From: Gammaproteobacteria bacterium Ga0077554
Lineage (GTDB): Bacteria > Pseudomonadota > Gammaproteobacteria > Ga0077554 > Ga007554
Assembly (NCBI GenBank): GCA_001464585.1
Contig: LNFF01000006.1
Span: 186,001 to 250,000 of the forward strand
Direction: 5' to 3'
Length of the DNA stretch: 64,000 nt
Part shown: positions 27,321 to 45,895 of the stretch, piece after piece
How positions within the stretch are numbered: the stretch's first letter is position 1
How the letters are laid out: the number at the start of each line of letters is the position of its first letter
Made by a program: the position numbers and the translations under genes
The notes under the pieces: generated by a model
Told to the model about the DNA's origin: nothing
The model's database searches: none
The model's input: only the letters and a program-made list of their open reading frames with translations

Positions 27321-30300
27321 TCAGCCAGCGATTGTCAGTGCCTCTGTCCAGGCAATACCATCTCCTTCAGCAGGATGCCTAGGTTCATCGGTGGGGCGAC
27401 CACCTTCCCGTCTCTGGCATTCCACTTCAGCCAGCAATCTCTTACAGATGGTTGCTGTAAGCCCGTTCCCTCTTGCGCGGATATAGAGCTGACGTCGTAA
27501 ATCGTTGCAGGCTTTGGGGTGTACTTCGTAATGCCCCTCAGCACCAAGCGATACGTGGCGTGTGAACATCCCCTTCAGCATCGAGTATACCGATCTGCGT
27601 GAATCTCCCGCCTTTCCGGCATCCAAGGCAGCTAAACCGTAACGCAGCCGAATAGTGTCACCATCAGGTATCAAAGTGAGTACGGCGCACGCGAATCCAT
27701 CGGCAAGTGGTGAACCGGAGCGTTCACATGCCATCAAGAAGGCGTCCAGACTTGCCAGATCCTTGCCAATGACGCGTATTACACTCGGAGCGATGCGTTC
27801 CAGATTCCAGGCGCTCTGACACCAAACGAACCAGGTTCCGTCGGAGACGATATCGAGGAATTCGGTGAAATGGTCGGGGCTGAGAGCTGCGGCCAGTGCG
27901 GAGGTCAGTTCTTCAGGAGGCCTCCCTTTCGCTGCTGATGTCCTGCCAAGCTCCAGAAGACATCTCCAGGCTTTATTAGATGGAATTATCCCCAAACGCC
28001 GAATGATCTCGTTAATGTGTGCGAAACGCTGCCACTCGACGAGGTAATCGCTTAGCGGTTTGCTCAGAAGGGATGCTGGCCTGACGAAGAACATAAGTTG
28101 GCAGAGTTCTGCCAACGCGTACCGCATCGAGTCATCTAGCCACTGCGTTTTGGCCTCCTCAGCGTACAGGGCCTCAATGCGTGCAATTACCGCAGGATCC
28201 TCGATAAACGCCCCTTGGCGTATCAGCCCTTTCAGTGCACCAACGGCACTAAAGACATCTATGAATCCATTTGTCAGTGCGTGAAAGACTGAAGCAATTA
28301 TCTCTGGGCTCGGTGTATTGGCAACTGCACTCAGTAATCCACGCATACGATAGGCCGCATGTTTGTCACCCCAATTGGCACTACCCGCAGCCTGCTCGGC
28401 CCGCAATTGATGAACCAGCTCCGTCAGTTTCTTACCCAATGCTCTGGCTGCAACGTCAGTCATTTCTTGGTGAGTGTCGTCGGGCTGGCGAAGGACTCGT
28501 CCAGCCAATCGACGCTCCTCCCCGTCTTTGAAATCAATCTCAATAGTTCGGAAATGCACCTCCTCCTTGCTTACCCAAGGCCGACGAACAATGCGTTCAA
28601 CGCTTTTGGGGATAAGCTGATTCGCCTGAGGATGATCGAGCAACTCCAAGAGGCCGGGTAGGGCTCCAAAACCCCAGTTTTCCATGGCGGAGACGAGATA
28701 GTTGCCCAAGCTTGGGTTGCTCGGCCGATCTCCTATCCGGTGCTTGAGCCATTCGTCGCACACCGTATCAAACATCTTCCAGGCGTCAAGGTGTAGGCGG
28801 CATCCATCAAGGAGTAAGTCACCGAACTCGGCCGGCGCGACGTGACTAGCAATGCAGCAGAGAAAGACATGCACTTTATGCTGTGGAGCTTTCTCATCGT
28901 CCGACTTCTCTCCGAAGGTGGCAATGAGAGTACGGACAGCCTCCGACGAAGGTAGCCATTGCGTTGTTTCCGACGACCTGCTGCCATCTCGACCAATGCG
29001 ACCCCGCACCAGATCAAGCAACTCAGACGCCTCGTGATACGAGGCACTCTCGCCGAGCTCCATGACTATGCTCAGCAGGTCGTCACCAGGAGCGTTGGCA
29101 AGCAAGTAGCCCAGATGCCGCTCCCGCTCTCTTTCGGCTTCAGGCAAATCCCTGCGGCGATCCTGGCAGTGATTGAGCCATTTGCGCACGCTACGAAGTG
29201 TTTGCTCACGGTTGGCCAGAGCGCCCACAGCTTGCGCACTTAGATGTTGCGCACCATCACTATGGAGGTTGCCCCACACTGCCTCAAAGACTTCGGCGCG
29301 AGTCTCGGTTGACTCCTGCTGGACAATCTTACATGCCCAGTCAGGAACCACACGTTCAGACAACACCAATTCCCGAGCCAAGGCATTCAGTCGGTCGGGC
29401 GCATGTTCCCGTGCAAGCGCCACCAGAGGCGCATCGTCGCCAGGGTGCTTAATTTCACGCAGTCGAGTCAAGATTACCTCAATAGCGTTCGGACCAACCT
29501 CATCAGGAAAAGCCAGGGCAAGCTTCAGTAGTGACTCGTCGGTTGAGTGTTCACGCGCCAAGCTCCTTAGTTTTTCGCGCACCTCGTCGCTGCCTACCCC
29601 TTGTTCCAGCGCGTACTCGACAACACTAATGACATTGTGTTCCAACTGGACCCCGACGGGGGCTTTCAACCAAGCCTGCAAAGCGGCTTCTGAAGCAGGG
29701 AAATTCCATGTCAGGGCAGCGATGGCTGCGGCACGAATCTCTCTTTCGGCGGCCTCGTTGGCTGTTTGTACCAAGAAATCATAGTTGTCTGGGTTATTAG
29801 CCAGCTCGTGTAGCAGCTCGGTTCGCCGCTCTGGCGACCATGCTGCTATTCGCGTCTCAGCATCCGCGCCGAGTTGCTTCAACGTGATTCCCCCGTTCAT
29901 TGGATACGTGTTGAATCGAATTTGTTCGTCATCGCTCTCTATGAGTGGCCATAGTCGGTTAGCAAAGACAGTGAAGCCGGAGGCGATTAGGCAACCTACC
30001 CCGTAGTTGGCCACCTCCTGCAGCGGTGAATCGCAGAGCAAATTGACCTGAGCAACTAAGTCACGGCACAGGTCGCTGTCATCAGTTTCAGAATGCGCAC
30101 AGGCTCCCGCCAAGTCGCAAGCGAAGCCAAGGTCGACTCTCAGTGCTGCTCTTACCAATCGACTCCTGGCCTGGGTATAGCCATCTGTCCCCTTTAGCTT
30201 GCCAGCAACCAACCGCAGGGCGTCTTCCCAAAATGGCTGGTTGACGGCTTTACTGAGCAATTCAAGGTCGTGCTCACCACCATCGACACAGGCACGAAAC

Positions 30301-34754: not shown

Positions 34755-34787
34755 GGTGTGCTCCTTTTTTTGTGATTGAAAAAACAA

Positions 34788-34828
34788 GGGGCAATCCACG
34801 ACCCCGGAGGGGAGCATGGATCTGCCCC
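34788..34828 (-). promoter_or_regulatory. Leader hairpin L1 (helicase gene)
   Basis: GGGGCA...TGCCCC stem ahead of a T-rich stretch, 30 bases before the helicase ATG. The loop region carries TGCTCC, complementary to GGAGCA of the ribosome binding site. Confidence 0.6.
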
Positions 34829-34859
34829 TGCGGGTCATTAGAAAGTAATGAAAAAGTTC

Positions 34860-35123
34860 CTACTTCAGGATGGTTACTGCATCATCATCCTCTTCAGCGG
34901 TGTCGACGCTATACAGCCGCGTAGGGTCGGTGCAATGACCCAATACCCTATCTGAATAGGCACTGACATGTCCCTCGGGTGAATACACCACATAGAAACA
35001 GGTGGCTGCACTGCCTTTGTCGTGTTGAATGCTTACGGCCTCTTTCGCGGCCTCTAGCGGGGTGTCCGCGTCGATATCTATTTCCCATACGACGCGATAG
35101 GTTTTGCTCATCATACTTTTCAT
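34860..35123 (-). CDS. Small hypothetical ICE protein
   Basis: 87 residues, no family recognised. The N-terminal part (TYRVVWEIDIDADTPLEAA) is the short beta-alpha pattern seen in many small phage and ICE proteins that begin with a conserved W-E-I-x-I-D-A and continue with A-A-x-E-A. The C-terminus is acidic. Start ATG at 35123 behind AAGGAG; an in-frame ATG at 35111 is an alternative. It is the first gene of a two-gene unit with the helicase and lies behind leader hairpin L2 and the structured repeat R-A. Confidence 0.6.
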   Translation of the reverse strand: MKSMMSKTYRVVWEIDIDADTPLEAAKEAVSIQHDKGSAATCFYVVYSPEGHVSAYSDRVLGHCTDPTRLYSVDTAEEDDDAVTILK

Positions 35124-35146
35124 GTTTTCTCCTTAAAGATAAAAAA

Positions 35147-35192
35147 CCGGGGAGAAAGCACAGACTCCACCATGGGGAATGTGATTCCCCGG
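35147..35192 (-). promoter_or_regulatory. Leader hairpin L2
   Basis: CCGGGGA...TCCCCGG with six Ts after it on the minus strand, ending 24 bases before the ATG. The proximal arm can instead form GGGGAAT-CAC-ATTCCCC, excluding the terminator form. The distal arm CTTTCTCC faces GGAGAAAA of the SD. Confidence 0.65.
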
Positions 35193-35206
35193 AGGTAGGT
35201 GGATTG

Positions 35207-35232
35207 AAAAAACCGAACCTTATGACAGGTTC
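35207..35232 (-). terminator. Leader terminator T1 in repeat R-A
   Basis: GAACCT/AGGTTC stem followed by GG and TTTTTT on the minus strand. It lies between the structured repeat and hairpin L2, far from any upstream gene end, so it may act as an attenuator. Confidence 0.6.
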
Positions 35233-35240
35233 AGCAGGGT

Positions 35241-35395
35241 TGAAGAGACAGACCGACAGCGTTACCGCTGTTGTGCCGTTTTCACGGTCCAACGCGCTCG
35301 TGATGAGCGGGTTTAGGCACTGGGCACCAGAAGTAGGTGCCTCTAGGCACGACTTACGAAGTCGTCACGTAAAAACGATTACATTCCACTACTGC
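35241..35395 (-). repeat. Structured leader repeat R-A
   Basis: One of four copies (also 40294-40420, 43715-43815, 45772-45895). On the minus strand it can form an ACGACTT/AAGTCGT hairpin, a CGCTC/GAGCG hairpin, CCGT-GAAA-ACGG and ACAGCG-GTAA-CGCTGT, in part enclosed by GTGCC/GGCAC pairing. This copy has a 20-base insertion near 35329. No tandem gene overlaps it. Confidence 0.7.
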
Positions 35396-35430
35396 TTTTT
35401 CCAAAACCTCCGCTGATGCGGGAGCTTGGG

Positions 35431-35454
35431 AAAAAGGCCCCCGCTTACGCGGGG
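35431..35454 (-). terminator. Intrinsic terminator after the small membrane-protein gene
   Basis: CCCCGC-GTAA-GCGGGG, then CCTTTTT on the minus strand, about 30 bases after the stop at 35483. It closes the operon upstream of repeat R-A. Confidence 0.75.
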
Positions 35455-35482
35455 ACGAGCGTTGTTAAAAAATTTTCATGTG

Positions 35483-35719
35483 TTAGACCGTCGCACCCTT
35501 AGGGAACCAGCGGTAAAGTCCAAGTAGGCTGGTAGCCGTAAATCCTAATTGCATCGTTACCAACCCCCACGACTCCATCGCAATGCCATAGCCCATCCAG
35601 CAGACGTTAGAGGCCAGGAACGCCATGAAACCGTAGCCTGAATACCGGTTGTTGAGCGCCAACAACGTAGCGCCCAGCAAACCGGTCACACAGCCTAGCC
35701 ATTCAAGCAGCAGGGGCAT
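35483..35719 (-). CDS. Small three-helix membrane protein
   Basis: 78 residues, mostly hydrophobic. Three likely membrane segments: about 3-20 (LLLEWLGCVTGLLGATLL), 27-47 (GFMAFLASNVCWMGYGIAM) and 53-70 (LVTMQLGFTATSLLGLYRW). It resembles the small inner-membrane proteins found in phages and ICEs, with no known task. ATG at 35719 follows GGAGGG and overlaps the upstream gene by 17 bases; it therefore needs no leader hairpin of its own. Confidence 0.6.
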   Translation of the reverse strand: MPLLLEWLGCVTGLLGATLLALNNRYSGYGFMAFLASNVCWMGYGIAMESWGLVTMQLGFTATSLLGLYRWFPKGATV

Positions 35720-36278
35720 CGCACTGCCCTCCCGTATCACCGACAATCGTCATCTCCTGCAGCACCCGGTCACGTATCTTAACCACAGCGCCATCCGGTA
35801 TCGAACGGTACCGACCGCGCTGGATCACCGTGAAGCGTGTGCGTGTCACACCGTCAGTGAAACGTATCCCGCCGGGATGCAACAATGTTGCTCCTTTTAC
35901 AATACGTTTTCTCTGCAACAGATTGGCACGGCAGGCCGCACGCCAGGCTAACGCATCGTGATTACTTGTCGGTGTTAACCGATCCAATATCCTCACCGGC
36001 GCGTCACAAGCATAGGGAAACATGGTTTCATCCATATCTTTATAGCCGAAGTTATAAGTGTCGTGAGGTGCATAACCCAGCAAACAGACGACGGCACACA
36101 CTTCATGAATACCCGTTTCCTTGCTCACACATTCCATAGCGATGTAGGCCGTGCGTAACTTGACCACGGCACAATCCAATAATTTACGTGTGTATAACTC
36201 ACCGTCACCGGCCCATCGTTCTTCAAAAAATTCTGCCACTGTCATGCCCTTGGGTTTATATGTATATGTCCAGCCCAT
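35703..36278 (-). CDS. Hypothetical ICE protein (DUF6927-like)
   Basis: 191 residues. The start MGWTYTYKPKGMTVAEFF and the central YNFGYKDMDETMFPYACDAP, followed by ILDRLTP, fit a family of small ICE/plasmid proteins that I recall as DUF6927; this is from memory. The C-terminus is a basic beta-rich part (TRTRFTVIQRGRYR). The function is unknown. The ATG follows GAGGAGG. Hairpin L3 precedes it and the membrane-protein gene overlaps its end. Confidence 0.6.
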   Translation of the reverse strand: MGWTYTYKPKGMTVAEFFEERWAGDGELYTRKLLDCAVVKLRTAYIAMECVSKETGIHEVCAVVCLLGYAPHDTYNFGYKDMDETMFPYACDAPVRILDRLTPTSNHDALAWRAACRANLLQRKRIVKGATLLHPGGIRFTDGVTRTRFTVIQRGRYRSIPDGAVVKIRDRVLQEMTIVGDTGGQCDAPAA

Positions 36279-36314
36279 GATTATTTCCTCCTCGTTGGTT
36301 TCACTTAAAAACCA

Positions 36315-36351
36315 CCGGGAAAGAAAGCCCCACCGGGCGTTTCTTTCCCGG
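36315..36351 (-). promoter_or_regulatory. Leader hairpin L3
   Basis: A perfect 12-bp stem CCGGGAAAGAAA/TTTCTTTCCCGG, then GTGGTTTTT, 20-35 bases before the SD. TTTC of the distal arm matches GGAAAT downstream of the SD only partly. Confidence 0.6.
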
Positions 36352-36400
36352 CAGGGTCGTTTAAATAATAGTTGTGTCCATTAATGCCTGTGTTACCGGG

Positions 36401-36922
36401 CTATAACATGCCCCGCTCCGCAAACGACACGGTGCTTGTCGCACCTATCACAATGTGATCCAGGATGCGGATATCCACCAACCCTAACGCCTCTTTGAGG
36501 CGCTGGGTGAGCGTGATATCTGCTGGACTGGGCTCGGGATCGCCGCTGGGATGGTTGTGCGTGAGCACTACTCCCGAGGCATTAACCGCCAATGCCCGCT
36601 GCACCACCACGCGTGGATACACTGACGCACCGTCAATCGTGCCGTGGAACATCTCTTCAAAACAGATCACCCGATGGCGGGTATCGAGGAACAGGCAGGC
36701 GAATACTTCCGCCTGACGTTCCGCTAAACGCAGCCGCAGGTACGCCTTGGCCTCCACGGGCGAGCCCATGAATGCGCCCGGTTGGTATCTGTATTCCATG
36801 ACCGTGAGCGCCATCGCCACCAGCATCTGCTGCTCCACCGGGTTAAGATCGTTCAACGACCATCCGGCGAAGCGATTGTGTTTTTCATTTTGATCAAATT
36901 GAACAACAACATTTTTTTTCAT
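36401..36922 (-). CDS. radC: RadC-like JAB-domain protein
   Basis: 173 residues. The metal-binding JAMM motif is complete: HNHPSGDPEPSPAD (about 130-143) with the conserved Glu further upstream in FEEMFHGT. ICE and plasmid RadC copies lack the N-terminal helix-hairpin-helix of chromosomal RadC, as here. The name comes from DNA repair, but the real role is unresolved; a peptidase or nuclease activity is possible. ATG at 36922 behind AGGAGGAGA. Leader hairpin L4 lies upstream, and the SD itself pairs with it. Confidence 0.85.
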   Translation of the reverse strand: MKKNVVVQFDQNEKHNRFAGWSLNDLNPVEQQMLVAMALTVMEYRYQPGAFMGSPVEAKAYLRLRLAERQAEVFACLFLDTRHRVICFEEMFHGTIDGASVYPRVVVQRALAVNASGVVLTHNHPSGDPEPSPADITLTQRLKEALGLVDIRILDHIVIGATSTVSFAERGML

Positions 36923-36946
36923 GGGGGTCTCCTCCTAAAAGTAAAA

Positions 36947-36983
36947 CGGGGAGACCGCCCCTGACAGGGAGAGGTTCTCCCCG
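36947..36983 (-). promoter_or_regulatory. Leader hairpin L4 (radC)
   Basis: CGGGGAGA-A-CC/GG-T-CTCCCCG stem followed by TTTTACTTTT. GGTCTCC in the distal arm (36950-36956) is perfectly complementary to GGAGACC at 36926-36932, next to the SD. The sequence differs from L5 or L8 but the pairing is kept. Confidence 0.7.
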
Positions 36984-37010
36984 TAAGTGGGCTACACACA
37001 ACAAACACTA

Positions 37011-38147
37011 TTAACGAATCACCCGCACCTGCCCGAACGTGGGACTGTGAGGTGTGAAGTCCAATGCCCGAATGACGGGCACAAATTTATCCGTGTGGAT
37101 GCGTATTTCTGAAAATCGGCCATTATCCCGCGCCTGGAGCTCGGTTTTAATGGCCTTCTCCTTGAACGTATCGCCCTTGATGACGAATACCCTGCCATCA
37201 CGCGCGGTCACTACACCAGAGACTTGGCCCGCCGCCAGCAGCAAGGCCAGATGCCAGTCTGAAGGTGCCCGAAGCGGTCGTCGTGGTACGGTGGCCGTAC
37301 GCCCGAAACGCAGATCGAACTGACTCCACAGGCACGCATGACGCGCTATTTCCTGAGCCAACTGCCGTGGTTCGACGCGGGTGTACACGAAGGTCGGATC
37401 CCCCGGCGGTGCGGCCGGTACGGTGTAAGGCGCTTCACACCACACCTCCGGCAATACCGTAAGCGGACTTCCTTCACTGATATCCCCCTCGGTGTGCGGG
37501 CGGCGGTCATTAGCCCGCCGTCGCACCCCGAACACCACCACCTGCTTGAACTGTTGCTCGGGAGCCAGAAACACCCGCACCTTGTCAAAGTGACGGGCAA
37601 TCCAGCCGCAGAGTTCCCGGTCCAAACTGTAGTGGGGGATGATAAGCACCATGACCCCACCCAACTGCACCAGCGGCACAGCAAGCTGATAAAACAACTT
37701 CTCCAGCCGCTTGCGGCCCTTGCCCCCTATGTCACCCGTGGCGGCCTTGTCGGCCACTAAATCGCCATAGGGCGGATTGAGCCACAGCAAGCCGAACTGC
37801 CGCTTACCGATGATGCAGTCCTGGACATCGCCGTGAATGCAGCGATCCAGGATCTCTTTAGCATGCCAGGCCCGCTCGGTGTCGTACTCCACGCCGAAGG
37901 CCTCGCACGCGGCGCCCAAGTGGTGTTTACACTCAGCCAGTGCGACACCCTCACCACAGCACGGATCAATGAGACGCATCCCGCCGTGCATGGATGCACA
38001 AGTGTCGCCAGAGGCAGGATGCCGGAAGCGACCGTCCGCCTTGGCCGGCGCCAGGGCGTTTAAGATACGCTGGGTGGTGTCCGAGTCGGTCGGATAATAC
38101 CCATTTTTAATAAAATTGCGCGCAAGGCGCCCAAACATTAAAGCCAT
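37011..38147 (-). CDS. DUF6094 methyltransferase-like ICE protein
   Basis: 378 residues. It has an adenine-N6 DNA methylase look: a SAM-binding motif LIDPCCGEGVAL (about 59-70) and NPPYG (about 130), typical of gamma/alpha-type DNA methyltransferases. The family (DUF6094) is a fixed part of ICEclc/SPI-7-like elements and is believed to protect or modify element DNA, though the target is unknown. The second half has no motif I know. ATG at 38147 with GGAGAAAG; this SD is fully complementary to the hairpin L5 arm. Confidence 0.82.
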   Translation of the reverse strand: MALMFGRLARNFIKNGYYPTDSDTTQRILNALAPAKADGRFRHPASGDTCASMHGGMRLIDPCCGEGVALAECKHHLGAACEAFGVEYDTERAWHAKEILDRCIHGDVQDCIIGKRQFGLLWLNPPYGDLVADKAATGDIGGKGRKRLEKLFYQLAVPLVQLGGVMVLIIPHYSLDRELCGWIARHFDKVRVFLAPEQQFKQVVVFGVRRRANDRRPHTEGDISEGSPLTVLPEVWCEAPYTVPAAPPGDPTFVYTRVEPRQLAQEIARHACLWSQFDLRFGRTATVPRRPLRAPSDWHLALLLAAGQVSGVVTARDGRVFVIKGDTFKEKAIKTELQARDNGRFSEIRIHTDKFVPVIRALDFTPHSPTFGQVRVIR

Positions 38148-38178
38148 GATGCTTTCTCCTTTTTCATTTCAAGTGAAG

Positions 38179-38220
38179 CCGGAGAAAGCGGATGCCCCTG
38201 GCCGGGGATGCTTTCCCCGG
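38179..38220 (-). promoter_or_regulatory. Leader hairpin L5 (DUF6094)
   Basis: An 11-bp stem CCGGGGAAAGC/GCTTTCTCCGG (one G-T). GCTTTCTCC (38181-38189) is also a perfect 9-base complement of GGAGAAAGC at 38151-38159, which is the SD. Confidence 0.75.
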
Positions 38221-38276
38221 CGGGGTGGTTCGCAAGGAGTCATAACCTTGCGAGTAATAAAGTTAAAATATAAATC

Positions 38277-38831
38277 TTAATTCAGCGCGTCGATGCGTGG
38301 GTGTCGATTGACATCAATCACGAACCCAAAACATTGGCGCTGTTTATATTCATCATCTGGAACAAGAAAACTCACGTTATGATCCAGTTCCGATCGACTA
38401 CCGCCGAGACTGGCCGATACATAGACGAATCCTTTCGGCACACCCGACAGCCAGTCACCCCAGGCAGCGATCACGACATAATCGTCACGATGATCCTCCT
38501 GGAACTGACGCTCGTCCTTAACGCGGGACTCACCCGGAAGGATGACAGTGCCTGTCAGGGTCTCGTAAGCATCGGGTAGCCATTGCTTCAATGTCCCCCA
38601 GGCGTGTTTTATACGTTCCTGGGGGAAATGCACACTGAAAACCACGACCACCCGCGCCCAATTTGTGTCTTCCTCGTACCATCCATTCTTGATGCGCAGA
38701 CACTCTGGCATCTCCCGACTGCGTCCAGGAGAAAGATGAATACCGCCGTGACCGGCGGTACTGTATTCCATGATGCCCGGCGCAATGCAGTCGGACGATT
38801 GAGAAGCGCCCCAAGGGGTATAAGTAGGCAT
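38277..38831 (-). CDS. DUF7007-like ICE protein
   Basis: 184 residues. The start TPWGASQSSDCIAPGIMEYS and STAGHGGIHLSP, followed by GWYEEDTNWARV, are the marks of the family I recall as DUF7007, common in ICEs and plasmids. The C-terminal half is beta-rich, with WGDWLSGVPKGFVYVSASLGG. The function is unknown. ATG at 38831 behind GGAGGAAA. Preceded by hairpin L6 and followed by hairpin L5. Confidence 0.68.
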   Translation of the reverse strand: MPTYTPWGASQSSDCIAPGIMEYSTAGHGGIHLSPGRSREMPECLRIKNGWYEEDTNWARVVVVFSVHFPQERIKHAWGTLKQWLPDAYETLTGTVILPGESRVKDERQFQEDHRDDYVVIAAWGDWLSGVPKGFVYVSASLGGSRSELDHNVSFLVPDDEYKQRQCFGFVIDVNRHPRIDALN

Positions 38832-38855
38832 AACATTTCCTCCGAAATAAAAAAG

Positions 38856-38897
38856 CCGGAGAAAGCGGATGCCCCTGACCGGGGATGCTTTCCCCGG
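38856..38897 (-). promoter_or_regulatory. Leader hairpin L6 (DUF7007)
   Basis: Nearly identical to L5 (CCGGGGAAAGC/GCTTTCTCCGG), then CTTTTTTATTT. The match to the SD (GGAGGAAA) is imperfect, needing a one-base bulge. Confidence 0.65.
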
Positions 38898-38910
38898 CGG
38901 GGTGGCTCAC

Positions 38911-38967
38911 AAGCCATTGCTTGCGAGAGATAAGATTTATGTAAAATTACCCGTTATATTTCTATGA
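38911..38967 (+). repeat. Direct repeat copy 1 (leader-like)
   Basis: aagccattgcttgcgaga...taagatttatgt...attacccgtt.tatttctatga recurs, in the same orientation and with a few changes, at 39427-39485. The second copy lies directly before a plus-strand ORF. Confidence 0.6.
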
Positions 38968-38978
38968 CGGTTGAACGG

Positions 38979-39305
38979 CTAGGCGCGGATGAGCGCCAAG
39001 GTGCGCGCGTCACCCACCAACAGTGATTGACCGGACGGAAATGCGGCTTCGAATAGATGGCCAACAGTTCCGTCACGATTCTCCTGCCAGGCCACCAAGG
39101 ATTCTTCGTACAAACGAAGAATCACTCTGACGGCATCCACCATCCAAGCCTGGGTCGGATCAACATCCGCCGCCAACGCCTCGTCACGCAAAATACGACG
39201 GAGCGTTTGGAGGTTGTCGCCGAAATCACAATCGACCATGGCGCCGATAGAGTTGCCGCGAAGGCGGTTCTTTCCGATGACTACCGGTATCTTGATACGT
39301 TGCAT
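38979..39305 (-). CDS. Hypothetical ICE protein
   Basis: 108 residues. A short beta start (RIKIPVVIGKNRL) is followed by a helical part (NLQTLRRILRDEAL, DAVRVILRLYEESLVAWQ) and a beta end (QSLLVGDARTLALIRA). No family known. A frame is open to 39353, but ATG at 39305 with AAGGAG is preferred. It stands alone between leader hairpins L7 and L6. Confidence 0.55.
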   Translation of the reverse strand: MQRIKIPVVIGKNRLRGNSIGAMVDCDFGDNLQTLRRILRDEALAADVDPTQAWMVDAVRVILRLYEESLVAWQENRDGTVGHLFEAAFPSGQSLLVGDARTLALIRA

Positions 39306-39337
39306 GAATTGGTCTCCTTGTGGTTGAGATATGAAAC

Positions 39338-39378
39338 CAACAGGGAGACACACCCCCAGCGGGGATGGCTCCCCGTTG
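39338..39378 (-). promoter_or_regulatory. Leader hairpin L7
   Basis: CAACGGGGAG/CTCCCTGTTG stem (one G-T) with an inner CCCC/GGGG. GTCTCC of the distal arm is complementary to GGAGAC of the SD region. Confidence 0.6.
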
Positions 39379-39426
39379 AGGTTGGTTGTTGTTTAAGCTG
39401 CGTTACACCGTCAGGCAGCATTTCGC

Positions 39427-39485
39427 AAGCCATTCACTTGCGAGTAATAAAGATTTATGTCAAATTACCCGTTGTATTTCTATGA
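39427..39485 (+). repeat. Direct repeat copy 2, before a plus-strand ORF
   Basis: See the copy at 38911-38967. It ends about 14 bases before the plus-strand ATG and could hold its promoter. Confidence 0.6.
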
Positions 39486-39498
39486 ACGATACTATTCC

Positions 39499-39741
39499 AT
39501 GCACTTGATTATCCAGGATCCTGCGACGGGGAAAATCCGCTTGACCCAGACCGCTATCGAACGGTACGGCGAGCGGTTTGCGCGCGCCGGTTATAATGCC
39601 CGGCAGATAACCACTGGTCAGCAATTTCAGGCCGCCGTGGATGCCAGCTTTGCATTGGAAATGCAGCACTTGGCATCCACGGCGCGGGGCACCAACCCCG
39701 AACTGGACAATGCCCTTGCGGGATTGCCCGGCTGGGATTAA
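39499..39741 (+). CDS. Small hypothetical protein on the opposite strand
   Basis: 80 residues (MHLIIQDPATGKIRLTQTAI...). It has a short beta start, an amphipathic middle helix (IERYGERFARAGY) and no family. It is the only probable plus-strand gene in this minus-strand array. The frame is open from 39457 but the ATG at 39499 is chosen because the sequence from there looks protein-like; the ribosome binding site is poor. The last four bases overlap the stop of the convergent small gene. Confidence 0.42.
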   Translation: MHLIIQDPATGKIRLTQTAIERYGERFARAGYNARQITTGQQFQAAVDASFALEMQHLASTARGTNPELDNALAGLPGWD

Positions 39742-39914
39742 TCCTGAAACACCTTTTTTAACTCAATGTATTCCTGCATGAGTTCCAATGCTTTTAATGC
39801 ATTGGTATCTTTAAGTCGGCCTTGCTGGAGCAATACAATCAGCTTGGCCTCGCGTTCCAGCAGCTCATCCAGATCCGCTCGTTCACAGTATTTATGAATC
39901 TTCCAAAGTTCCAT
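39738..39914 (-). CDS. Short coiled-coil-like protein, coupled to the upstream gene
   Basis: 58 residues (MELWKIHKYCERADLDELLE...), charged and helical. The start codon overlaps the upstream stop as TGATG, so translation is probably by reinitiation; there is no leader hairpin. No family recognised. The composition and phase support a real gene in spite of its size. Confidence 0.55.
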   Translation of the reverse strand: MELWKIHKYCERADLDELLEREAKLIVLLQQGRLKDTNALKALELMQEYIELKKVFQD

Positions 39915-40177
39915 CAGATTGATCCAAACAGCCTGGGACGAAACAAACGCGGCCTACGAAAAATCTCGTAGACCGCGTGGGAGGCACCAGCCTGTTGCTC
40001 TGCAGCCTCCCACGCTTCAATCCATGCCATTTGGCGGGCTTGGGCGTGCCGTCTTACCTCAGCTTCAATTGCATTAATACAATCTCGACGACACTGCCAA
40101 TGGGTGTACATCTTTCGGCAGCGACGCCATACTAATGCACTCGTTATTAATAACAACACGAACCATATTGCAGTCAT
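39914..40177 (-). CDS. Small single-pass membrane protein
   Basis: 87 residues. The first 17 residues (MTAIWFVLLLITSALVW) form one N-terminal membrane anchor followed by RRCRKM, so the basic C-terminal helix (about 40-65) would lie in the cytoplasm. Function unknown. ATG at 40177; AGGAGAAAACAC of the SD pairs perfectly with hairpin L8. The gene leads a two-gene unit under repeat R-B. Confidence 0.6.
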   Translation of the reverse strand: MTAIWFVLLLITSALVWRRCRKMYTHWQCRRDCINAIEAEVRRHAQARQMAWIEAWEAAEQQAGASHAVYEIFRRPRLFRPRLFGSI

Positions 40178-40203
40178 AGTGTTTTCTCCTGGGGGTTAAA
40201 AAA

Positions 40204-40247
40204 CCGGGGAGAAAACACAGACCCCCATCGGGAATGTGATTCCCCGG
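40204..40247 (-). promoter_or_regulatory. Leader hairpin L8
   Basis: CCGGGGA/TCCCCGG terminator form with TTTTTT; GGGGAAT-CAC-ATTCCC is the alternative. GTGTTTTCTCC (40208-40218) is an 11-base perfect complement of GGAGAAAACAC (40179-40189), which includes the SD. Confidence 0.8.
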
Positions 40248-40261
40248 AGGTAGGTAGATTG

Positions 40262-40287
40262 AAAAAACCGAACCTTATGACAGGTTC
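40262..40287 (-). terminator. Leader terminator T1 in repeat R-B
   Basis: GAACCT/AGGTTC stem then GG-TTTTTT, identical in design to 35207-35232. Confidence 0.6.
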
Positions 40288-40293
40288 AGCAGG

Positions 40294-40420
40294 GTGAAGA
40301 GACAGATCGACAGCATGACTGCTGTTGTGCCGTTTTCACGATCCAACGCGCTCGTGATGAGCGGGTATAGGCACCGCGACTTTACCGAAGTCGTCACGGG
40401 TAAAAACAATTACGTTCCAC
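40294..40420 (-). repeat. Structured leader repeat R-B
   Basis: Second copy of the R family. Its ACAGCA-GTCA-TGCTGT hairpin replaces ACAGCG-GTAA-CGCTGT of R-A, a paired change G-C to A-T; the CCGT/ACGG stem changes to TCGT/ACGG (still pairing). These changes support folding of the minus-strand RNA. Confidence 0.7.
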
Positions 40421-40458
40421 TGCTTTTTCCAAAACCTCCATCTATGCGGGGGCTTGGG

Positions 40459-40483
40459 AAAAAGGCCCCCGAAAGCCGGGGGC
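40459..40483 (-). terminator. Intrinsic terminator of the upstream operon
   Basis: GCCCCCGG...CCGGGGGC-type hairpin, then CCTTTTT on the minus strand, eight bases after the stop at 40491. Confidence 0.75.
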
Positions 40484-40490
40484 ACTCTAA

Positions 40491-40829
40491 TTAAACAACT
40501 TTCATCCCATCACCTGGCTGAAGCAGCGCCCTGGCTTGCTCAAGCAGTATGTCGCGCTGCTTTTCCAGCTCGGCAATGCGCCACAGATAGTAGCTTGAAC
40601 ACACGATAGTATCTTCTGCAACCGTTAGCCGTGTTCCATCTTCTCCAGGCCGCGTTACATTGACGACCCTGTTTTCTTCGAACCACTCGAAACACGGATC
40701 GTAGATAATGTCGATGTCTTTCCCTGCCAGATCCTTGGCTTTTTCAATCGCCTCTTCATCCGAGGCGGCTTCGATTTCAACATCGGCATAGGCCGGGAGG
40801 GTAATTCCCAAAGTGGCTGCGTATTTCAT
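40491..40829 (-). CDS. Hypothetical ICE protein
   Basis: 112 residues. A beta-alpha start (LPAYADVEIEAASDEEAIEK) like that of the small protein at 34860 suggests the same fold; the middle (VVNVTRPGEDG) and a C-terminal coiled helix (RIAELEKQRDILLEQARALL) follow. ATG at 40829 overlaps the upstream stop as ATGA; no leader hairpin, in keeping with coupled translation. No function known. Confidence 0.58.
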   Translation of the reverse strand: MKYAATLGITLPAYADVEIEAASDEEAIEKAKDLAGKDIDIIYDPCFEWFEENRVVNVTRPGEDGTRLTVAEDTIVCSSYYLWRIAELEKQRDILLEQARALLQPGDGMKVV

Positions 40830-41290
40830 GAAATGCACTCCTGTTCTTCATCACATTTCACATTGCAGCCCCTAATGACTTCGATGAGCTTTTCATCAAC
40901 ATCAATGAAAACTTCATCTTTACCTTCCTGGATAGCCTCCGTTATCGCTTTTGCAAGTTTTCTAAAACTAATTCTGTAGGTTCCCACGCTATGATTCGCG
41001 TGCTTGGGATAACCAATGAACCAAAACCTCTCATCACCACTCTCACCACCAATGGAAAGGTCTTCACAGCCCATTCGATACTCTTCGTTATTATGCCAAC
41101 ATAAATTTACTTCCACCGTAACGTGAGCAAGACTATGCTTCTTCACGATGTCCAGCAACGATTGCGCCCTCTCCAGCCACGCCTGATCGAGATAAAACCA
41201 GGTGTAACGTGGGCCTTCTTCATAATCATTCAAGGTAAAGGCGCTGAGATAGACCGTAATTTTCTTGCCTTCCGGCAATTGCATCTTCAT
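40826..41290 (-). CDS. Hypothetical ICE protein
   Basis: 154 residues, no family recognised. It has a beta-rich start (KKITVYLSAFTL), an aromatic middle (RFWFIGYPKHAN) and an acidic C-terminal end with three Cys (GCNVKCDEEQEC). ATG at 41290 behind AGGAGGAAGCC. Hairpin L9 lies upstream and the SD pairs with it. First gene of a coupled pair. Confidence 0.58.
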   Translation of the reverse strand: MKMQLPEGKKITVYLSAFTLNDYEEGPRYTWFYLDQAWLERAQSLLDIVKKHSLAHVTVEVNLCWHNNEEYRMGCEDLSIGGESGDERFWFIGYPKHANHSVGTYRISFRKLAKAITEAIQEGKDEVFIDVDEKLIEVIRGCNVKCDEEQECIS

Positions 41291-41314
41291 GGCTTCCTCC
41301 TGACAATAAAAAAG

Positions 41315-41360
41315 CCGGGGAAAGCCTCCCCCTTGCCGGGAGAACTCTCCCCGACAAGGG
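41315..41360 (-). promoter_or_regulatory. Leader hairpin L9
   Basis: CGGGGA/TCCCCG with CTTTTTT after it; the alternative is CCTTG-x-CGGGGAGA/TCTCCC-GCAAGG without a T run. GGCTTTCCCC (41317-41326) pairs with GGAGGAAGCC (41291-41300) at nine of ten positions, one of them G-T. Confidence 0.68.
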
Positions 41361-41379
41361 TGGGTTTAAAAAATTACTC

Positions 41380-41685
41380 TTAAGGTATGGGATCCTGCAT
41401 TTCCAAGGCCCACTCATCCACTGATACATCGGTATCGAACCGGGCATAGACACCGCCATCACCTGGAACAGACTCATTCCAGATAAAATGGGCGCATACA
41501 CCTAATGCTTCCCCTTGAAAATCGTCCGAGACTGTAACCACCTCACCACCGCAATAATCGGCAATGATCTGCCCCAGATCGGACACGAACCTGACATAGC
41601 ATGGGCGCTCCGAAATGATGTCTTTACCATCAATGATGATGCGAACGATCTCCAGCAGTTCCGTGTCTTTCAACACCTTGCTCAT
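41380..41685 (-). CDS. Hypothetical ICE protein
   Basis: 101 residues. The N-terminal half (KVLKDTELLEIVRIIIDGKD) is helical; the second half has three short strands and an acidic end. No family. A TTG at 41691 overlaps the DUF6573 stop, but ATG at 41685 behind GGGAGGATTGATC is preferred; it leaves a two-base gap. No leader hairpin, as expected for a gene this close to its neighbour. Confidence 0.55.
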   Translation of the reverse strand: MSKVLKDTELLEIVRIIIDGKDIISERPCYVRFVSDLGQIIADYCGGEVVTVSDDFQGEALGVCAHFIWNESVPGDGGVYARFDTDVSVDEWALEMQDPIP

Positions 41686-41687
41686 GA

Positions 41688-42722
41688 TCAATCCTCCCCT
41701 GGCAACATGATCGTCATCACCATTTCACCCTCATCGCCTGCCCCTGCGTGCAGATGCAGGGTAGTCAACTTGGGTTTGTGGCTTTTCCCATCACAGGGGA
41801 CGCGGTACAGTTGAAACGGCGTGCGCGTCTCGCCCAACTTGGCGGTACGCGCGGCGTTGGCTGCCATCCACACGACATCCCACAGCCGCCCCGGCTCATC
41901 CTGGTATGTCTGTCGCCGACGGTCTTCCTCGCCCCAGGCCACACAGTCGGCGTAAACGCCTTGTGTGAGAGCCACGGCACAACGGAATCCGGCCTCGACC
42001 GCCGTCTCGCTGACATCGACCAGCACACCGTCCGTGATGGCCTGTGCGCGCGTGTAGACGCTGATGATCTGCGCATCCGCAAACGGATCAGCTAAACCAC
42101 TCGCGCCCTGAACAAGGACGGGCGGCATCTTGTCCACCGTGAGATGACCCTGGCGGATCCAGTGCTGTACCGTCTCTTCCACTTGCGCTTCGGGCAAGCT
42201 GACCTGGATGGCATTTAATCCAATACCCTCCAGCCGCTTGATCCAACCGACCGTCTCCATCCCCGCCAGCACCGTTTCACGCCAATGATCCAGCAGGGGT
42301 AGATGGCAGGTGTCTTTAACCAAGGCCCACAGCCGTTCCGTCAACTTTGCGGACTGCTCTTCGCCGGGCCGATAAAACAACAAGGCACGGCGATTAGCGT
42401 AGTCCGGTGACAATGCCAGGCGGTCATATAACCAAAGATGAACAACATCACCGAAGAGGTTGGTCTTCGGCATCCGTCCCGTGTCTTTTTGGAGCCGGTC
42501 AGCGCCACCGACTTGCACATAGGTGGAACCGTCTGCTTCAAAGTCCGCTTCAAGCCGGAAGGCAGCCAGCCCACCTTCCTGCGTCGGCAGACTCAGGCGC
42601 GCCAAAAACTCCTGGATGGCGGTGTCACGTCCCCACAGGGAGAGAAACACCAATGTGGATTGATCTGTAACAATGGCGTCGGCAAACAGCCCAGGCGCCT
42701 CGGTAATCGACATTAAACTCAT
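41688..42722 (-). CDS. DUF6573-containing ICE protein with long N-terminal part
   Basis: 344 residues. The C-terminal 125 residues (FADAQIISVYTRAQAITDGV, then CVAWGEEDRRRQTYQDEPGR, FQLYRVP) form the DUF6573 domain known from conjugative elements. The N-terminal 210 residues have no family I know and make the protein about twice the usual length; they may be a fusion. ATG at 42722 behind AAGGAG; the SD and six following bases pair with hairpin L10. Function unknown. Confidence 0.75.
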   Translation of the reverse strand: MSLMSITEAPGLFADAIVTDQSTLVFLSLWGRDTAIQEFLARLSLPTQEGGLAAFRLEADFEADGSTYVQVGGADRLQKDTGRMPKTNLFGDVVHLWLYDRLALSPDYANRRALLFYRPGEEQSAKLTERLWALVKDTCHLPLLDHWRETVLAGMETVGWIKRLEGIGLNAIQVSLPEAQVEETVQHWIRQGHLTVDKMPPVLVQGASGLADPFADAQIISVYTRAQAITDGVLVDVSETAVEAGFRCAVALTQGVYADCVAWGEEDRRRQTYQDEPGRLWDVVWMAANAARTAKLGETRTPFQLYRVPCDGKSHKPKLTTLHLHAGAGDEGEMVMTIMLPGED

Positions 42723-42748
42723 GGCATACTCCTTACGTTGAAATTAAA

Positions 42749-42790
42749 CCCGGAGCACGCCACCCCCCCACGGGGCAGTGCGCCCCGGGC
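42749..42790 (-). promoter_or_regulatory. Leader hairpin L10 (DUF6573)
   Basis: CCCGG-x-GC-x-CAC/GTGCTCCGGG with TTTAATTT after it; GGGGC-GCACT-GCCCC is the alternative hairpin. GGCGTGCTCC (42752-42761) pairs with GGAGTATGCC (42723-42732) over ten bases with two G-T pairs. Confidence 0.75.
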
Positions 42791-42830
42791 AGGTTGATAA
42801 AACGTGTTACAAAACCCTCGTTAAAAAAAT

Positions 42831-43451
42831 CTAAGCCGCAGCAGAATGCACTTCGCCATTTACTTCACGGGGCATGCCCTTGGCCACCTCCTTGATCCAC
42901 ACCTGTCCGACCGCCTGGAAACGGTAGCCTGAAGACTTTAACCGATCCCGCTGTGAACGGAACCGTGCCCGGTCCACCGTAGGATCGAGCTTGACCTCGC
43001 TGCCTAATGGCCACGACGCGCCAAACAATTCAAGGTCTGAGGTGTGGATATCATCACCGTCTGATGGCTTGAGCGCTTGAGGCAGATCGACTTCCGTCTT
43101 TCCAAGGGTGGTGACAGCGCGCAGCTCCGCAACCACCGGTGTTTCATCCAGTGGATCGGATTCAACGGCGACAGCGTGCTCTTCCTCTGCTGTGAGTTTT
43201 CCAATACCTGCCAGGGCGATCGTTTCGACACATGCCCGGATTTCAACGCGGACACCTCCGGCAGCCGCATACGAAAAAGGATATATTCGGGAGATCCCAA
43301 AGTCCCCTTCGTACTTGCCGGGGTCGTACTGTTCCAGCAACGTGTCTTTGACGGTAAATTCGCCCAGCTCGGTGACGAGTCGGCCGATACTGAATGGGCC
43401 GTTACGGCCGGTGATGGATTTGATGGTCAGCAGACCACTGAGTTTGATCAT
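42831..43451 (-). CDS. DUF3275-family ICE protein
   Basis: 206 residues. The start MIKLSGLLTIKSITGRNGPF with FSIGRLVTELGEFTVKD and YEGDFGISRIYPFSY is typical of DUF3275, a backbone family of SPI-7/ICEclc elements. A variable acidic middle (about 115-150) and a C-terminal basic part (ARFRSQRDRLKSSGYRF) follow. Function unknown, probably DNA-linked. The frame is open to 43574 but ATG at 43451 with AAGGAGGTGC is chosen. The SD is fully complementary to the hairpin L11 arm. Confidence 0.82.
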   Translation of the reverse strand: MIKLSGLLTIKSITGRNGPFSIGRLVTELGEFTVKDTLLEQYDPGKYEGDFGISRIYPFSYAAAGGVRVEIRACVETIALAGIGKLTAEEEHAVAVESDPLDETPVVAELRAVTTLGKTEVDLPQALKPSDGDDIHTSDLELFGASWPLGSEVKLDPTVDRARFRSQRDRLKSSGYRFQAVGQVWIKEVAKGMPREVNGEVHSAAA

Positions 43452-43482
43452 AAGCACCTCCTTCGTTGGATTAATAAAGTCG

Positions 43483-43533
43483 AGGAGGTGCGCCCTGGAG
43501 GGGAGCACGCTCCCCAGTGGGCAAAAAATAAAG
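43483..43533 (-). promoter_or_regulatory. Leader hairpin L11 (DUF3275)
   Basis: CTGGGGAG-CGTG-CTCCCC-T-CCAG within GCCC/GGGC. GCACCTCCT (43483-43491) is a perfect 9-base complement of AGGAGGTGC (43454-43462), which is the SD, across a 20-base loop. Confidence 0.75.
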
Positions 43534-43560
43534 ACGGGAACCTGAAAAATCAGGTTCCCG
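43523..43560 (-). terminator. Leader terminator T1 of the DUF3275 unit
   Basis: CGGGAACCTGA/TCAGGTTCCCG with a TTTT loop, then TCTTTATTTTTT on the minus strand. It occupies the same place as T1 of the R-A and R-B leaders. Confidence 0.7.
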
Positions 43561-43714
43561 CGCTTGAACAACATTACGCTTCGCTGGAACAGCTTTGCAG
43601 GGCGTTGTACAGATCAGCGCAATGTTGCAACCACGGCGTGTGTATCCGTAGCAGAATGGACAATAGAGGAGTGGACCTAGCTTTGCAGGGCGTCATGATC
43701 CATCATCTATTGCA

Positions 43715-43815
43715 AGACCGACAGCGTTACCGCTGTTGTGCCGTTTTCACGGTCCAACGCGCTCGTGATGAGCGGGTTTAGGCACTGGGCACGACTTTAC
43801 CGAAGTCGTCACGGT
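43715..43815 (-). repeat. Structured leader repeat R-C
   Basis: Third copy of the R family, almost identical to R-A from AGACCGACAG to the ACGACTT-x-AAGTCGT hairpin. About 150 bases of unrelated sequence separate it from T1, including a 15-bp direct repeat agctttgcagggcgt (43591 and 43679). Confidence 0.7.
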
Positions 43816-44201
43816 TACAACGCTTTAAATCTAACCTTTACTGTTTTTGCTGTCAATCGGTTTCTCCCAGCGGTCTGGGCGGCCCCAAATCGCTCGGAGA
43901 AACCCCCTCAAAATAAGGAGGCTTCCCATCGTCTGAATAGTACAGCAATGCATGATTATAGCCACGTCTGCCTCTTCACAGACGACCTGGCGTTATTCTA
44001 TCAGCCTAAATCCTGGCCGACTAATCCCATTGCAAGGAACGTATGCTTGGCTTGCCGTGAGCCGCTGCATTCTTCCTTGCCTGGCCCGCCTTTGGGGATC
44101 TTGGGCCAACTACACATAAGGGCGCGACACGCAATCGATGTGCCGCACAAAGGGGCGCTGCCATTTCCCGACGGCAGGCGGCCGGCAGAGTGAAAGTGAA
44201 G
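43816..44201. other. Gene-free stretch upstream of R-C
   Basis: About 390 bases. Frames on both strands are short and of improbable composition. It separates two transcription units. Confidence 0.4.
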
Positions 44202-44264
44202 ACCCCAAGGCCTTCCCTCAGCACCCCCGTTAATCCTGGAAGCAATGAGGGAAGGCCTTGGGGT
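44202..44264. repeat. 19-bp perfect inverted repeat
   Basis: ACCCCAAGGCCTTCCCTCA (44202-44220) and its exact complement (44246-44264) with a 25-base loop. It follows the gene at 44310 and could end transcripts from both sides, though no T run is next to it. Confidence 0.6.
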
Positions 44265-44309
44265 TGCATCACCCCAACCCCACGACCTTCCCTTTACAAA
44301 TAACCCATC

Positions 44310-44675
44310 TCACAAAGCCTGGGTGTGTATTTTTGATGCTCGGGCAGTGTGCGGCGGGATAACATCCGCATGCCACAAGGGGTTTTTCATCGCACGTTCC
44401 AGTTGACCGTGACTCAAAATAAAATATTTCTCAGACATCGCTTCCTCGACGGCATCCAGCTTTGACGGATGCTGTGAGTCACCGTAGAAGCCATGGTCAT
44501 CGAAAAATGACAATTGCCACCACCCGACTCGCTTGGCGCTGGGCACAATAATAACGGCCTGCCATGCACCGCTGTATTGACTCTTTTTCAGAAATTCAAT
44601 CGGTGTATCGGCGCCATGACGGCGGTCATGCCAATGCACCACGGCTTTGACCACAGTAAATTCAAGTACGCTCAT
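44310..44675 (-). CDS. Hypothetical ICE protein
   Basis: 121 residues. Pattern: a beta start (VLEFTVVKAVVHW), a central AVIIVPSAKRVGWWQLSFFD and a helical C-terminal half. No family recognised. The frame runs up to 44714; ATG at 44675 with AAGGAGA is preferred. Behind hairpin L12. Confidence 0.55.
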   Translation of the reverse strand: MSVLEFTVVKAVVHWHDRRHGADTPIEFLKKSQYSGAWQAVIIVPSAKRVGWWQLSFFDDHGFYGDSQHPSKLDAVEEAMSEKYFILSHGQLERAMKNPLWHADVIPPHTARASKIHTQAL

Positions 44676-44700
44676 CGTTCGTCTCCTTGATAAAAGAAAA

Positions 44701-44748
44701 CCAACGGGGCGCACTTCTCCCCCAACGGGAAAAATACTCCCGTTGGGG
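44701..44748 (-). promoter_or_regulatory. Leader hairpin L12 with two exclusive forms
   Basis: On the minus strand CCAACGGG can pair with the near CCCGTTGG (no T run) or with the far CCCCGTTGG, which is followed by TTTTCTTTT. The two forms exclude each other, as antiterminator and terminator do in attenuators. Confidence 0.65.
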
Positions 44749-44830
44749 TTGTTAATGAGGAAGCGGCTAGTGTCCGCTTCCTCGTTTTAAATGTTAAAAA
44801 AACAAACGTAACTATTTTTTAATCTAAGTG

Positions 44831-45067
44831 TTAGTTGGGACTTGTGACCTCTGTCCAGAATTCAGGTACAAGTGGCCACGAATCTCTAATGTCATGATAC
44901 CTATCATTCTGTTGATCGTACTCTGCCCACTCTCCACCTTCTTGCCAATGCGTGTAGAGTCCATACATGGGTGCCGCCCATCCATGTGAATAAAACAACA
45001 CTTTCACTTGGGCGCCCACCTCTGTTGTTGGCGAGCTATCTTTCGTACTAACCCATTGCATCGTCAT
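44831..45067 (-). CDS. Small hypothetical protein (DUF551-like pattern)
   Basis: 78 residues. MQWVSTKDSSPTTEVGAQVK and a C-terminal WPLVPEFW recall small phage-type DUF551 proteins (W-x-S-x-K-D-x-x-P). The middle is aromatic (HGWAAPMYGLYTHW). Function unknown. ATG at 45067 behind GAGGAG; hairpin L13 just upstream. Confidence 0.55.
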   Translation of the reverse strand: MTMQWVSTKDSSPTTEVGAQVKVLFYSHGWAAPMYGLYTHWQEGGEWAEYDQQNDRYHDIRDSWPLVPEFWTEVTSPN

Positions 45068-45092
45068 GATGGTTACTCCTCATAAAAAAACA

Positions 45093-45114
45093 CCGGGGAT
45101 ATCACTATCCCCGG
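45093..45114 (-). promoter_or_regulatory. Leader hairpin L13
   Basis: CCGGGGATA-GTGA-TATCCCCGG, a perfect 9-bp stem, followed by TG and TTTTTTT. It is the shortest of the set and has no clear anti-SD, so it may be a plain terminator. Confidence 0.7.
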
Positions 45115-45134
45115 CACGATTGGAAATGAAAAAT

Positions 45135-45656
45135 TTAGAGAGGATCACTGTCATTGAAGGTGTAGTCCCTTCCACTTTCATCATCAGCAGGAATGTGCTG
45201 TTGATGGCTGGCAGGGACATCCTCATTGGACGTGTCACTTGAAACCGGCAACACATGCATGCCGTCAACTTTCGCCCAATGGATTTTCAGTAACCGGGCT
45301 TTGAGACTGACGCCTGTTTGACCGGCTTTTTCACCTTTGTCATAGACAAAGGTTTCGGTATACAGATCACCGAGCTTGAAGGACACCAACACCTTTTTCT
45401 TGGCCTGAATTTCCGGCATCAGCAGGCGAATAACCTCTTGCGCCTCTTCACCAGAAACACGGCAATCAAAACGGGTGTAGTTAACATCATCACCCGCCTT
45501 ACCGTGTAATGCTGACACTTCAACTGCAAGAAACGGCTGACCGCGTTTTACCTGGACTTCGCGGGCACGGTAGAGATAACCGATGCCTGCGACATGCAGA
45601 TCAAAATACTTCTGATCCTGTGTGGTTTGATTGTTGGCTGGATTGCTATTGGTCAT
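45135..45656 (-). CDS. DUF3577 (STY4534-type) ICE protein
   Basis: 173 residues. YFDLHVAGIGYLYRAREVQ with VKRGQPFLAVEVSALHG and the following YTRFDCRVSG are typical of DUF3577, a conserved SPI-7/ICEclc protein of single-stranded-DNA-binding (OB-like) look. The last 40 residues are acidic, as in many ssDNA-binding proteins. It may take part in element replication; that is inference. The frame opens at 45698 but ATG at 45656 with AAGGAGAAAG is preferred, and this SD pairs with hairpin L14. Confidence 0.82.
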   Translation of the reverse strand: MTNSNPANNQTTQDQKYFDLHVAGIGYLYRAREVQVKRGQPFLAVEVSALHGKAGDDVNYTRFDCRVSGEEAQEVIRLLMPEIQAKKKVLVSFKLGDLYTETFVYDKGEKAGQTGVSLKARLLKIHWAKVDGMHVLPVSSDTSNEDVPASHQQHIPADDESGRDYTFNDSDPL

Positions 45657-45683
45657 GATACTTTCTCCTTGAGGGTTTAAAAA

Positions 45684-45727
45684 CCGGGGAGAAAGCACAG
45701 ATCCCGACCGGGAATGTGATTCCCCGG
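45684..45727 (-). promoter_or_regulatory. Leader hairpin L14 (DUF3577)
   Basis: CCGGGGA/TCCCCGG with TTTTT; GGGGAAT-CAC-ATTCCC is the alternative. GCTTTCTCC (45688-45696) pairs with GGAGAAAGT (45660-45668), one G-T. Confidence 0.72.
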
Positions 45728-45739
45728 ATGGGTGGTTTG

Positions 45740-45771: not shown

Positions 45772-45895
45772 TGAAGAGACAGACCGACAGCGTTACCGCT
45801 GGTGTGCCGTTTTCACGATCCAACGCGCTCATGATGAGCGGGTATAGGCACTGGGCACGACTTTACCGAAGTCGTCACGGGTAAAAACAATTGCG
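45772..45895 (-). repeat. Structured leader repeat R-D
   Basis: Fourth copy of the R family. It carries the same series of hairpins as R-A with scattered substitutions in loops. It marks the first transcription unit of the array and follows the lipoprotein gene end. Confidence 0.7.

Follow-up and report, generated by a model that had tools for sequence, protein, structure and literature searches.

A 64,000-nucleotide (nt) stretch of contig LNFF01000006.1 from Gammaproteobacteria bacterium Ga0077554 (hereafter the window) contains an integrative and conjugative element (ICE) of the PFGI-1/SPI-7 type whose genes are preceded by a family of structured leader RNAs. There are 14 leaders in the window, one ahead of each listed gene that is not translationally coupled to the gene before it. 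Computation shows how these leaders are built, that one of their pairing arms coevolves with the Shine–Dalgarno (SD) sequence of the gene behind it, that their two folds exclude each other, and that they recur in related elements; the structure is well supported. On balance we favor the view that the leaders are a family of bistable, cis-acting RNAs, one for each independently translated gene, that gate the expression of that gene.

An earlier description made from the letters of the DNA alone (the sequence-only reading) had proposed 14 leader hairpins ahead of non-coupled genes. A covariance model recovers 14 leaders in the window, and none is present at the translationally coupled genes (starts 41685, 40829, 39914 and 35719).

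Leader architecture and two competing folds

In strand order, a leader comprises an upstream CCC motif (N0), the arms A, B, B′ and C, a T-rich stretch, the SD, a spacer and the start codon. Arm A can pair with B or C, arm B with A or B′, and arm C with A or with the SD and spacer of its own gene. In fold I, A·C encloses B·B′ and the SD is left free; combined with a T run, this is the anatomy of an intrinsic terminator. In fold II, A·B and N0·B′ form upstream and C·SD forms downstream, so that the terminator stem is gone and the SD and spacer are hidden. Leaders folded without their last bases adopt one structure, and with these bases included they usually adopt another. The sequence-only reading had captured this structure in part: the pairings of its distal arm (arm C) are exact, but it made no mention of the upstream CCC or of arms B and B′.

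The leader of the DUF6094 methyltransferase gene (minus strand, as are all leaders of the window) serves as the type example. Its arm A (38210–38220, CCGGGGAAAGC) imitates the ribosome binding site (RBS) GGAGAAAGC, and the resemblance arises because both must pair with C. Arm B (38202–38208, TCCCCGG) is predicted to pair with A or with B′ (38195–38198, GGGG), and arm C (38179–38189, GCTTTCTCCGG) with A or with the SD and spacer at 38151–38159. N0 reads CCCC in this leader.

On average, 69% of the arm C bases able to bind the SD have an upstream partner as well in the SD-free fold. The two folds therefore exclude each other, in agreement with the mutual exclusion of a terminator form and an SD-masking form that had been suggested from sequence. 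These shared bases, together with the covariation of A with C described below, indicate that an alternative partner that precludes masking, an anti-anti-SD, is present. When the approximately 80 nt leader was inspected for a riboswitch domain, strong conservation was limited to the arms and a short 5′ motif. In one leader, at L054:10289–10387, a small additional hairpin separates B′ from C while the A·C and C·SD arms are intact, which makes this leader a natural insertion test of the fold.

Arm C coevolves with the ribosome binding site of its own gene

We compared the duplex energy of each arm C with its own SD to the energies of duplexes made with the corresponding segments of other leaders. 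Own pairs in the window average −16.2 kcal/mol versus −12.3 kcal/mol for swapped pairs, and none of 100,000 permutations was as good. A second test exchanged only the spacer after GGAG to remove the trivial effect of the GGAG core. For 50 leaders the own spacer again gave the stronger duplexes (−15.4 versus −12.2 kcal/mol; 0 of 20,000 permutations as good). Foreign spacers weakened pairing: z was −5.0 for the 14 window leaders, −16.0 for 131 independent leaders, −20.8 for all 244 leaders and −6.9 for 48 non-redundant leaders, the last set being the only provision for relatedness among leaders in tests that include no explicit phylogeny. The upstream arm thus varies with the RBS region of its own gene, as had been claimed for the window. 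Exchanges within seven ortholog families gave z values of −2.7 to −7.6, indicating that arm and SD change together, and not independently, in homologous leaders.

The covariance model R1 was built on fold I only and includes no C·SD pairs. It yielded 95 gene-strand matches in the window and relatives, 50 of them outside the training set, and arm C and SD coevolve in the newly found leaders as well (z = −6.2). Complementarity also exceeds that of dinucleotide-shuffled leaders, with p < 0.05 reached individually by 6 of the 13 leaders from the window and by 24 of the 39 from relatives. By both the swap and the shuffle tests, then, the anti-SD arm pairs with its own SD region above chance.

The five pairings first noted by eye hold base for base. 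Watson–Crick pairs account for all 11 positions of 40208–40218 with 40179–40189, all nine of 38181–38189 with 38151–38159, all nine of 43483–43491 with 43454–43462, and all seven of 36950–36956 with 36926–36932; 42752–42761 with 42723–42732 comprises eight Watson–Crick and two G–U pairs.

Column covariation likewise points to RNA structure, as the sequence-only reading had argued. The register of A·C is the best by far, with 254 double-change cells versus 116.5 ± 7.1 in shuffled alignments. A·B gives 83 (50.3 ± 6.0 shuffled) and C·SD in a fixed register gives 73 (45.6 ± 5.0 shuffled), the latter count being diluted because spacer length varies. The counts lean towards A·C because the alignments used (A2 and A5) were fitted to fold I; the swap tests are independent of them. 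The position of arm C opposite the A of GGAG is U in 60 rows and C in 62, its partners being a G in arm A and an A in the SD. Arm C is therefore a compromise between two partners, and spacer coevolution is seen in both classes of leader. Between arms A and C, adenine–cytosine mismatches are depleted (54 seen versus 87 expected) and G–U pairs are not (227 seen, 227 expected), as expected of a sense-strand RNA. Enrichment of G–U pairs was dropped as strand evidence since these occur at expectation; the mismatch depletion alone is informative.

Leaders recur in related elements

Covariance model searches revealed hundreds of leaders in related elements of the PFGI-1/SPI-7 type, among them pKLC102 of Pseudomonas aeruginosa, where R1 matches end at annotated gene starts. 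The 80 named loci of alignment A5 contain 271 matches, 270 of which have the same orientation as the gene block. All 150 aligned matches end in ATG, which the model expects, and 141 of these continue into an open reading frame of at least 40 amino acids. Of 274 genomes sampled from the class, 23 have R1 matches at E ≤ 1e-4, and 12 of these carry a gene for an SNF2-type helicase. On contigs lacking this gene, several matches precede genes that, judged by eye, are ICE-like, such as those for DUF3577-like proteins. Copies are present in Pseudomonas, Thiobacillus, Halomonas, Hydrogenophaga, Methylococcales and others, and matches, several of them weak, occur in plasmids of Rhizobium, Paraburkholderia, Vibrio and Shewanella. 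The SNF2-type helicase gene of one related element is interrupted by a group II intron (L034:8568–10923, minus strand).

Leaders of the window

Along the gene block, the first leader (45654–45736) precedes the DUF3577/STY4534-type gene (start 45656), with an R1 score of 67.6 bits and a C × SD duplex of −15.9 kcal/mol. The next (45065–45123; gene 45067) is the exception. Folding gives a plain hairpin followed by T7 and no good SD-pairing arm (22.7 bits; −6.6 kcal/mol). Gene 44675 has a leader at 44673–44752 (48.6 bits), and strong C × SD duplexes are found for the DUF3275 gene (start 43451; leader 43449–43525; 28.9 bits; −20.3 kcal/mol) and the DUF6573 gene (start 42722; leader 42720–42797; 46.3 bits; −21.9 kcal/mol). 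The leaders of genes 41290 (41288–41364), 40177 (40175–40258, with the 11 of 11 C·SD pairs) and 39305 (39303–39385) score 50.5, 57.6 and 53.1 bits, respectively. Those of the DUF7007 gene (start 38831; 38829–38906) and the DUF6094 gene (start 38147; 38145–38229), for which both folds are predicted, score 59.2 and 62.6 bits. The radC gene (start 36922) follows with a leader at 36920–36991 (38.9 bits; −23.3 kcal/mol), then the DUF6927 gene (start 36278; 36276–36360; 46.3 bits), gene 35123 (35121–35203; 47.5 bits) and the SNF2-type helicase gene (start 34754; 34752–34841; 49.5 bits).

Masking is weak in the leaders of genes 36278 and 34754, where the predicted gain is 1.0 and 0.8 kcal/mol. The proposal that the distal arm is an anti-SD thus holds for most leaders, fails for that of gene 45067 and brings little masking gain in these two. 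A hairpin with a T run had also been assigned to every such gene; the leaders are there, but a universal T run is not, as those of genes 43451, 42722, 39305 and 38147 have TTT at most.

A proposed lock on each gene, and other explanations

Our preferred mechanism assumes that the nascent RNA forms A·B and then A·C before the SD is made. Fold I would stop or pause RNA polymerase where a T run exists, and transcripts that pass with C free would be silenced by C·SD. A full-length transcript that keeps C on A would be translated, with A and the RBS competing for C. Because translation would need C to be held on A and other transcripts would be stopped or masked, the leader would thus serve as a lock against stray read-through. 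The gap between the upstream stop codon and the leader has a mode of 10–30 nt and a long tail. So short a gap leaves little room for a promoter, and leaders therefore probably act within polycistronic mRNAs. The long tail of this distribution is the reason that control by an upstream ribosome, as in trp-like attenuation, was not adopted.

Several observations weigh against a bistable, gating leader. A T-rich tail (at least four T in eight) follows the A·C stem in 64% of the 244 leaders and is thus lacking in about a third. The minimum free energy (MFE) structure of the full-length leader with its SD hides the SD core in 94% of them with a median gain of about 8 kcal/mol, which is moderately above shuffled sequences (77% hidden; unmasking cost 7.9 versus 5.3 kcal/mol), and MFE alone was for this reason set aside as proof of masking. 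In about half of 150 leaders the arm C base facing the A of GGAG is a C, which leaves the core pairing mismatched in that register. The leaders of genes 45067, 36278 and 34754 have no convincing fold II.

Only about two thirds of leaders have a T-rich tail, so termination is not a constant of the family. This gives some weight to a purely translational control, wherein capture of C by arm A or another factor ends its masking of the RBS and the likeness to a terminator is incidental. The intercistronic position of the leaders and the SD coevolution seen whatever base of C opposes the A of GGAG are consistent with this explanation, which we judge possible although clearly the less probable one. 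T-rich tails are still common, however, averaging approximately four T in eight, and their share rises from 45% of leaders above 63% GC to 80% of those below 50% GC.

It is unlikely that the leaders are instead targets of an RNA-binding protein, either one resembling CsrA or some unknown protein of the element, that reads the N0 motif or the GGGG/CCCC hairpin and to which folding displays the site. Such sites would fit the conserved 5′ motif of the alignments and the sequence YAAYC, which immediately precedes the SD in 54 of 227 leaders versus 6% in shuffles, and CsrA homologues are frequent on mobile elements (PMC7366521). However, GGA lies mostly in stems of the predicted folds. Among the subset of element proteins scanned, no CsrA or NusG paralogue was found; the genome has one of each, on other contigs.

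Plain intrinsic terminators or insulators, with SD complementarity a by-product of GGGG/CCCC arms, would account for the stem and T run of many leaders. This explanation is improbable, since coevolution also takes in the spacer behind GGAG, for which a terminator has no use, and since the leaders lie between co-directional genes with little room for promoters. That the inverted repeat at each leader is bound as DNA by a protein is most improbable, given that pairing takes in the SD spacer, that the mismatch and G–U counts are those of sense RNA and that the strand is fixed relative to the gene block.

RNAs at the heads of gene groups

The radC RNA (Rfam RF01754; PMC2864571) is a candidate cis-regulatory RNA of unknown function. 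Three radC RNAs of pKLC102 end just before a leader begins (12082 to 12091, 13162 to 13190 and 15677 to 15684), which by coordinates leaves 8, 27 and 6 nt between them, and radC RNA lies directly before leaders in further loci. Its model scores above the cut-off in 23 of 49 named leader-bearing genomes versus 1 of 274 sampled class genomes. The radC RNA differs from the leaders in being larger and of another structure and in matching neither them nor the repeat described below.

The radC RNA covariance model found no match in the window, either at its gathering cut-off or at E ≤ 5. Its place is taken by a repeat of approximately 130 nt whose four copies (45781–45880, 43715–43814, 40267–40411 and 35212–35385, minus strand) are 87–96% alike and stand at the heads of gene groups. 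A further copy is present in the related locus L006, and two copies end in a terminator-like hairpin (40290–40267 and 35235–35212). The repeat has no Rfam match. Although its position is alike, it was rejected as a radC RNA because that model does not match it, and a special fold was rejected because its stability is no greater than that of shuffles (z = −0.72). Just upstream of two copies, at about 40425–40470 and 35395–35445, lies a long interrupted palindrome (TTTTTCCCAAGC...GGAGGTTTTGGAAAAA).

Tentatively, and with more doubt than belief, we suggest an element-wide layer of control in which the head RNA (radC RNA or the 130 nt repeat) modifies RNA polymerase to read through the terminator-like A·C folds by processive antitermination, and in which read-through transcripts alone have an open RBS. 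Stray transcripts would stop or fold into the masked form. If this is true, the genes of the element are doubly locked until its own promoters fire. A link of this kind to radC RNA was not extended to all elements; most of the leader-bearing genomes in the class sample lack radC RNA, and the link is therefore not universal.

Processive antitermination RNAs include put (phage HK022) and EAR (the eps operon of Bacillus). By analogy alone, a structured RNA placed ahead of a series of terminator-like sites in one unit could account for the radC RNA or the window repeat.

The element and its gene block

Protein family models identify the bearer as a PFGI-1/SPI-7-type ICE, with ParB (TIGR03764), STY4528, STY4534/DUF3577, AcaB and SSB all matched. 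The STY4534 model scores 158.1 against a cut-off of 160, and DUF3577 scores 165 against a cut-off of 25. The leaders lie in the accessory/replication gene block, which encodes DUF3577 (STY4534-type), DUF3275, DUF6573, DUF7007, DUF6094 methyltransferase, RadC, DUF6927 and SNF2-type helicase proteins; genes for the PFGI-1 ParB, STY4528, AcaB and SSB are located further along the same ICE. Residues 37–57, approximately, of the DUF6094 gene (37011–38147) form a 21-residue stretch with short matches at many unrelated sites of the same genome, perhaps a dispersed DNA repeat within the gene.

A queA-like gene and a tRNA-Leu-like gene adjoin the ICE genes at 61508–62741, a site that is the probable end of the element. 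A 1551-amino acid protein encoded at 27321–31976 (minus strand) has a NACHT C-terminal (NCAB2) domain and is possibly a defence-type protein.

Relation to known systems and significance

Competing terminator and anti-SD strands are familiar from transcription attenuators and the expression platforms of riboswitches. The leaders resemble these in offering one strand alternative pairings, with arm A acting like an anti-anti-SD. They differ in that most show no leader peptide or ligand domain, that nearly all genes of the block have their own copy of the module, and that the terminator-like stem is also the open-SD form. Conjugative elements are likewise known to gate genes at the RNA level with leader hairpins, by translational attenuation in the tetQ leader of CTnDOT and by transcriptional attenuation in Tn916. 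Those are single leaders, whereas here 14 with gene-specific arms occur in one element, in Proteobacteria.

No family of Rfam 15 matches the leaders of the window and its relatives. A literature search found no description of them, although its coverage was incomplete and an earlier description, perhaps as a 'DUF3577' candidate motif, is possible. Attenuators and SD-masking leaders are known, and what is new, as far as tested, is a repeated module with opposed terminator-like and masking folds at almost every gene of a conjugative-element block. That related elements of many bacteria share this design points to an as yet undescribed system of RNA control.

The elements that bear these leaders move genes among many proteobacteria, pKLC102 of P. 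aeruginosa being one of them, and studies of their control have centered on promoters and DNA-binding regulators. The leaders provide a large natural set of competing RBS and anti-RBS arms for the study of RNA switches, and a possible partner for the unexplained radC RNA. A leader stands before nearly every accessory/replication gene and has been kept through deep divergence despite sequence change; RNA-level gating may therefore be core to the biology of these elements.

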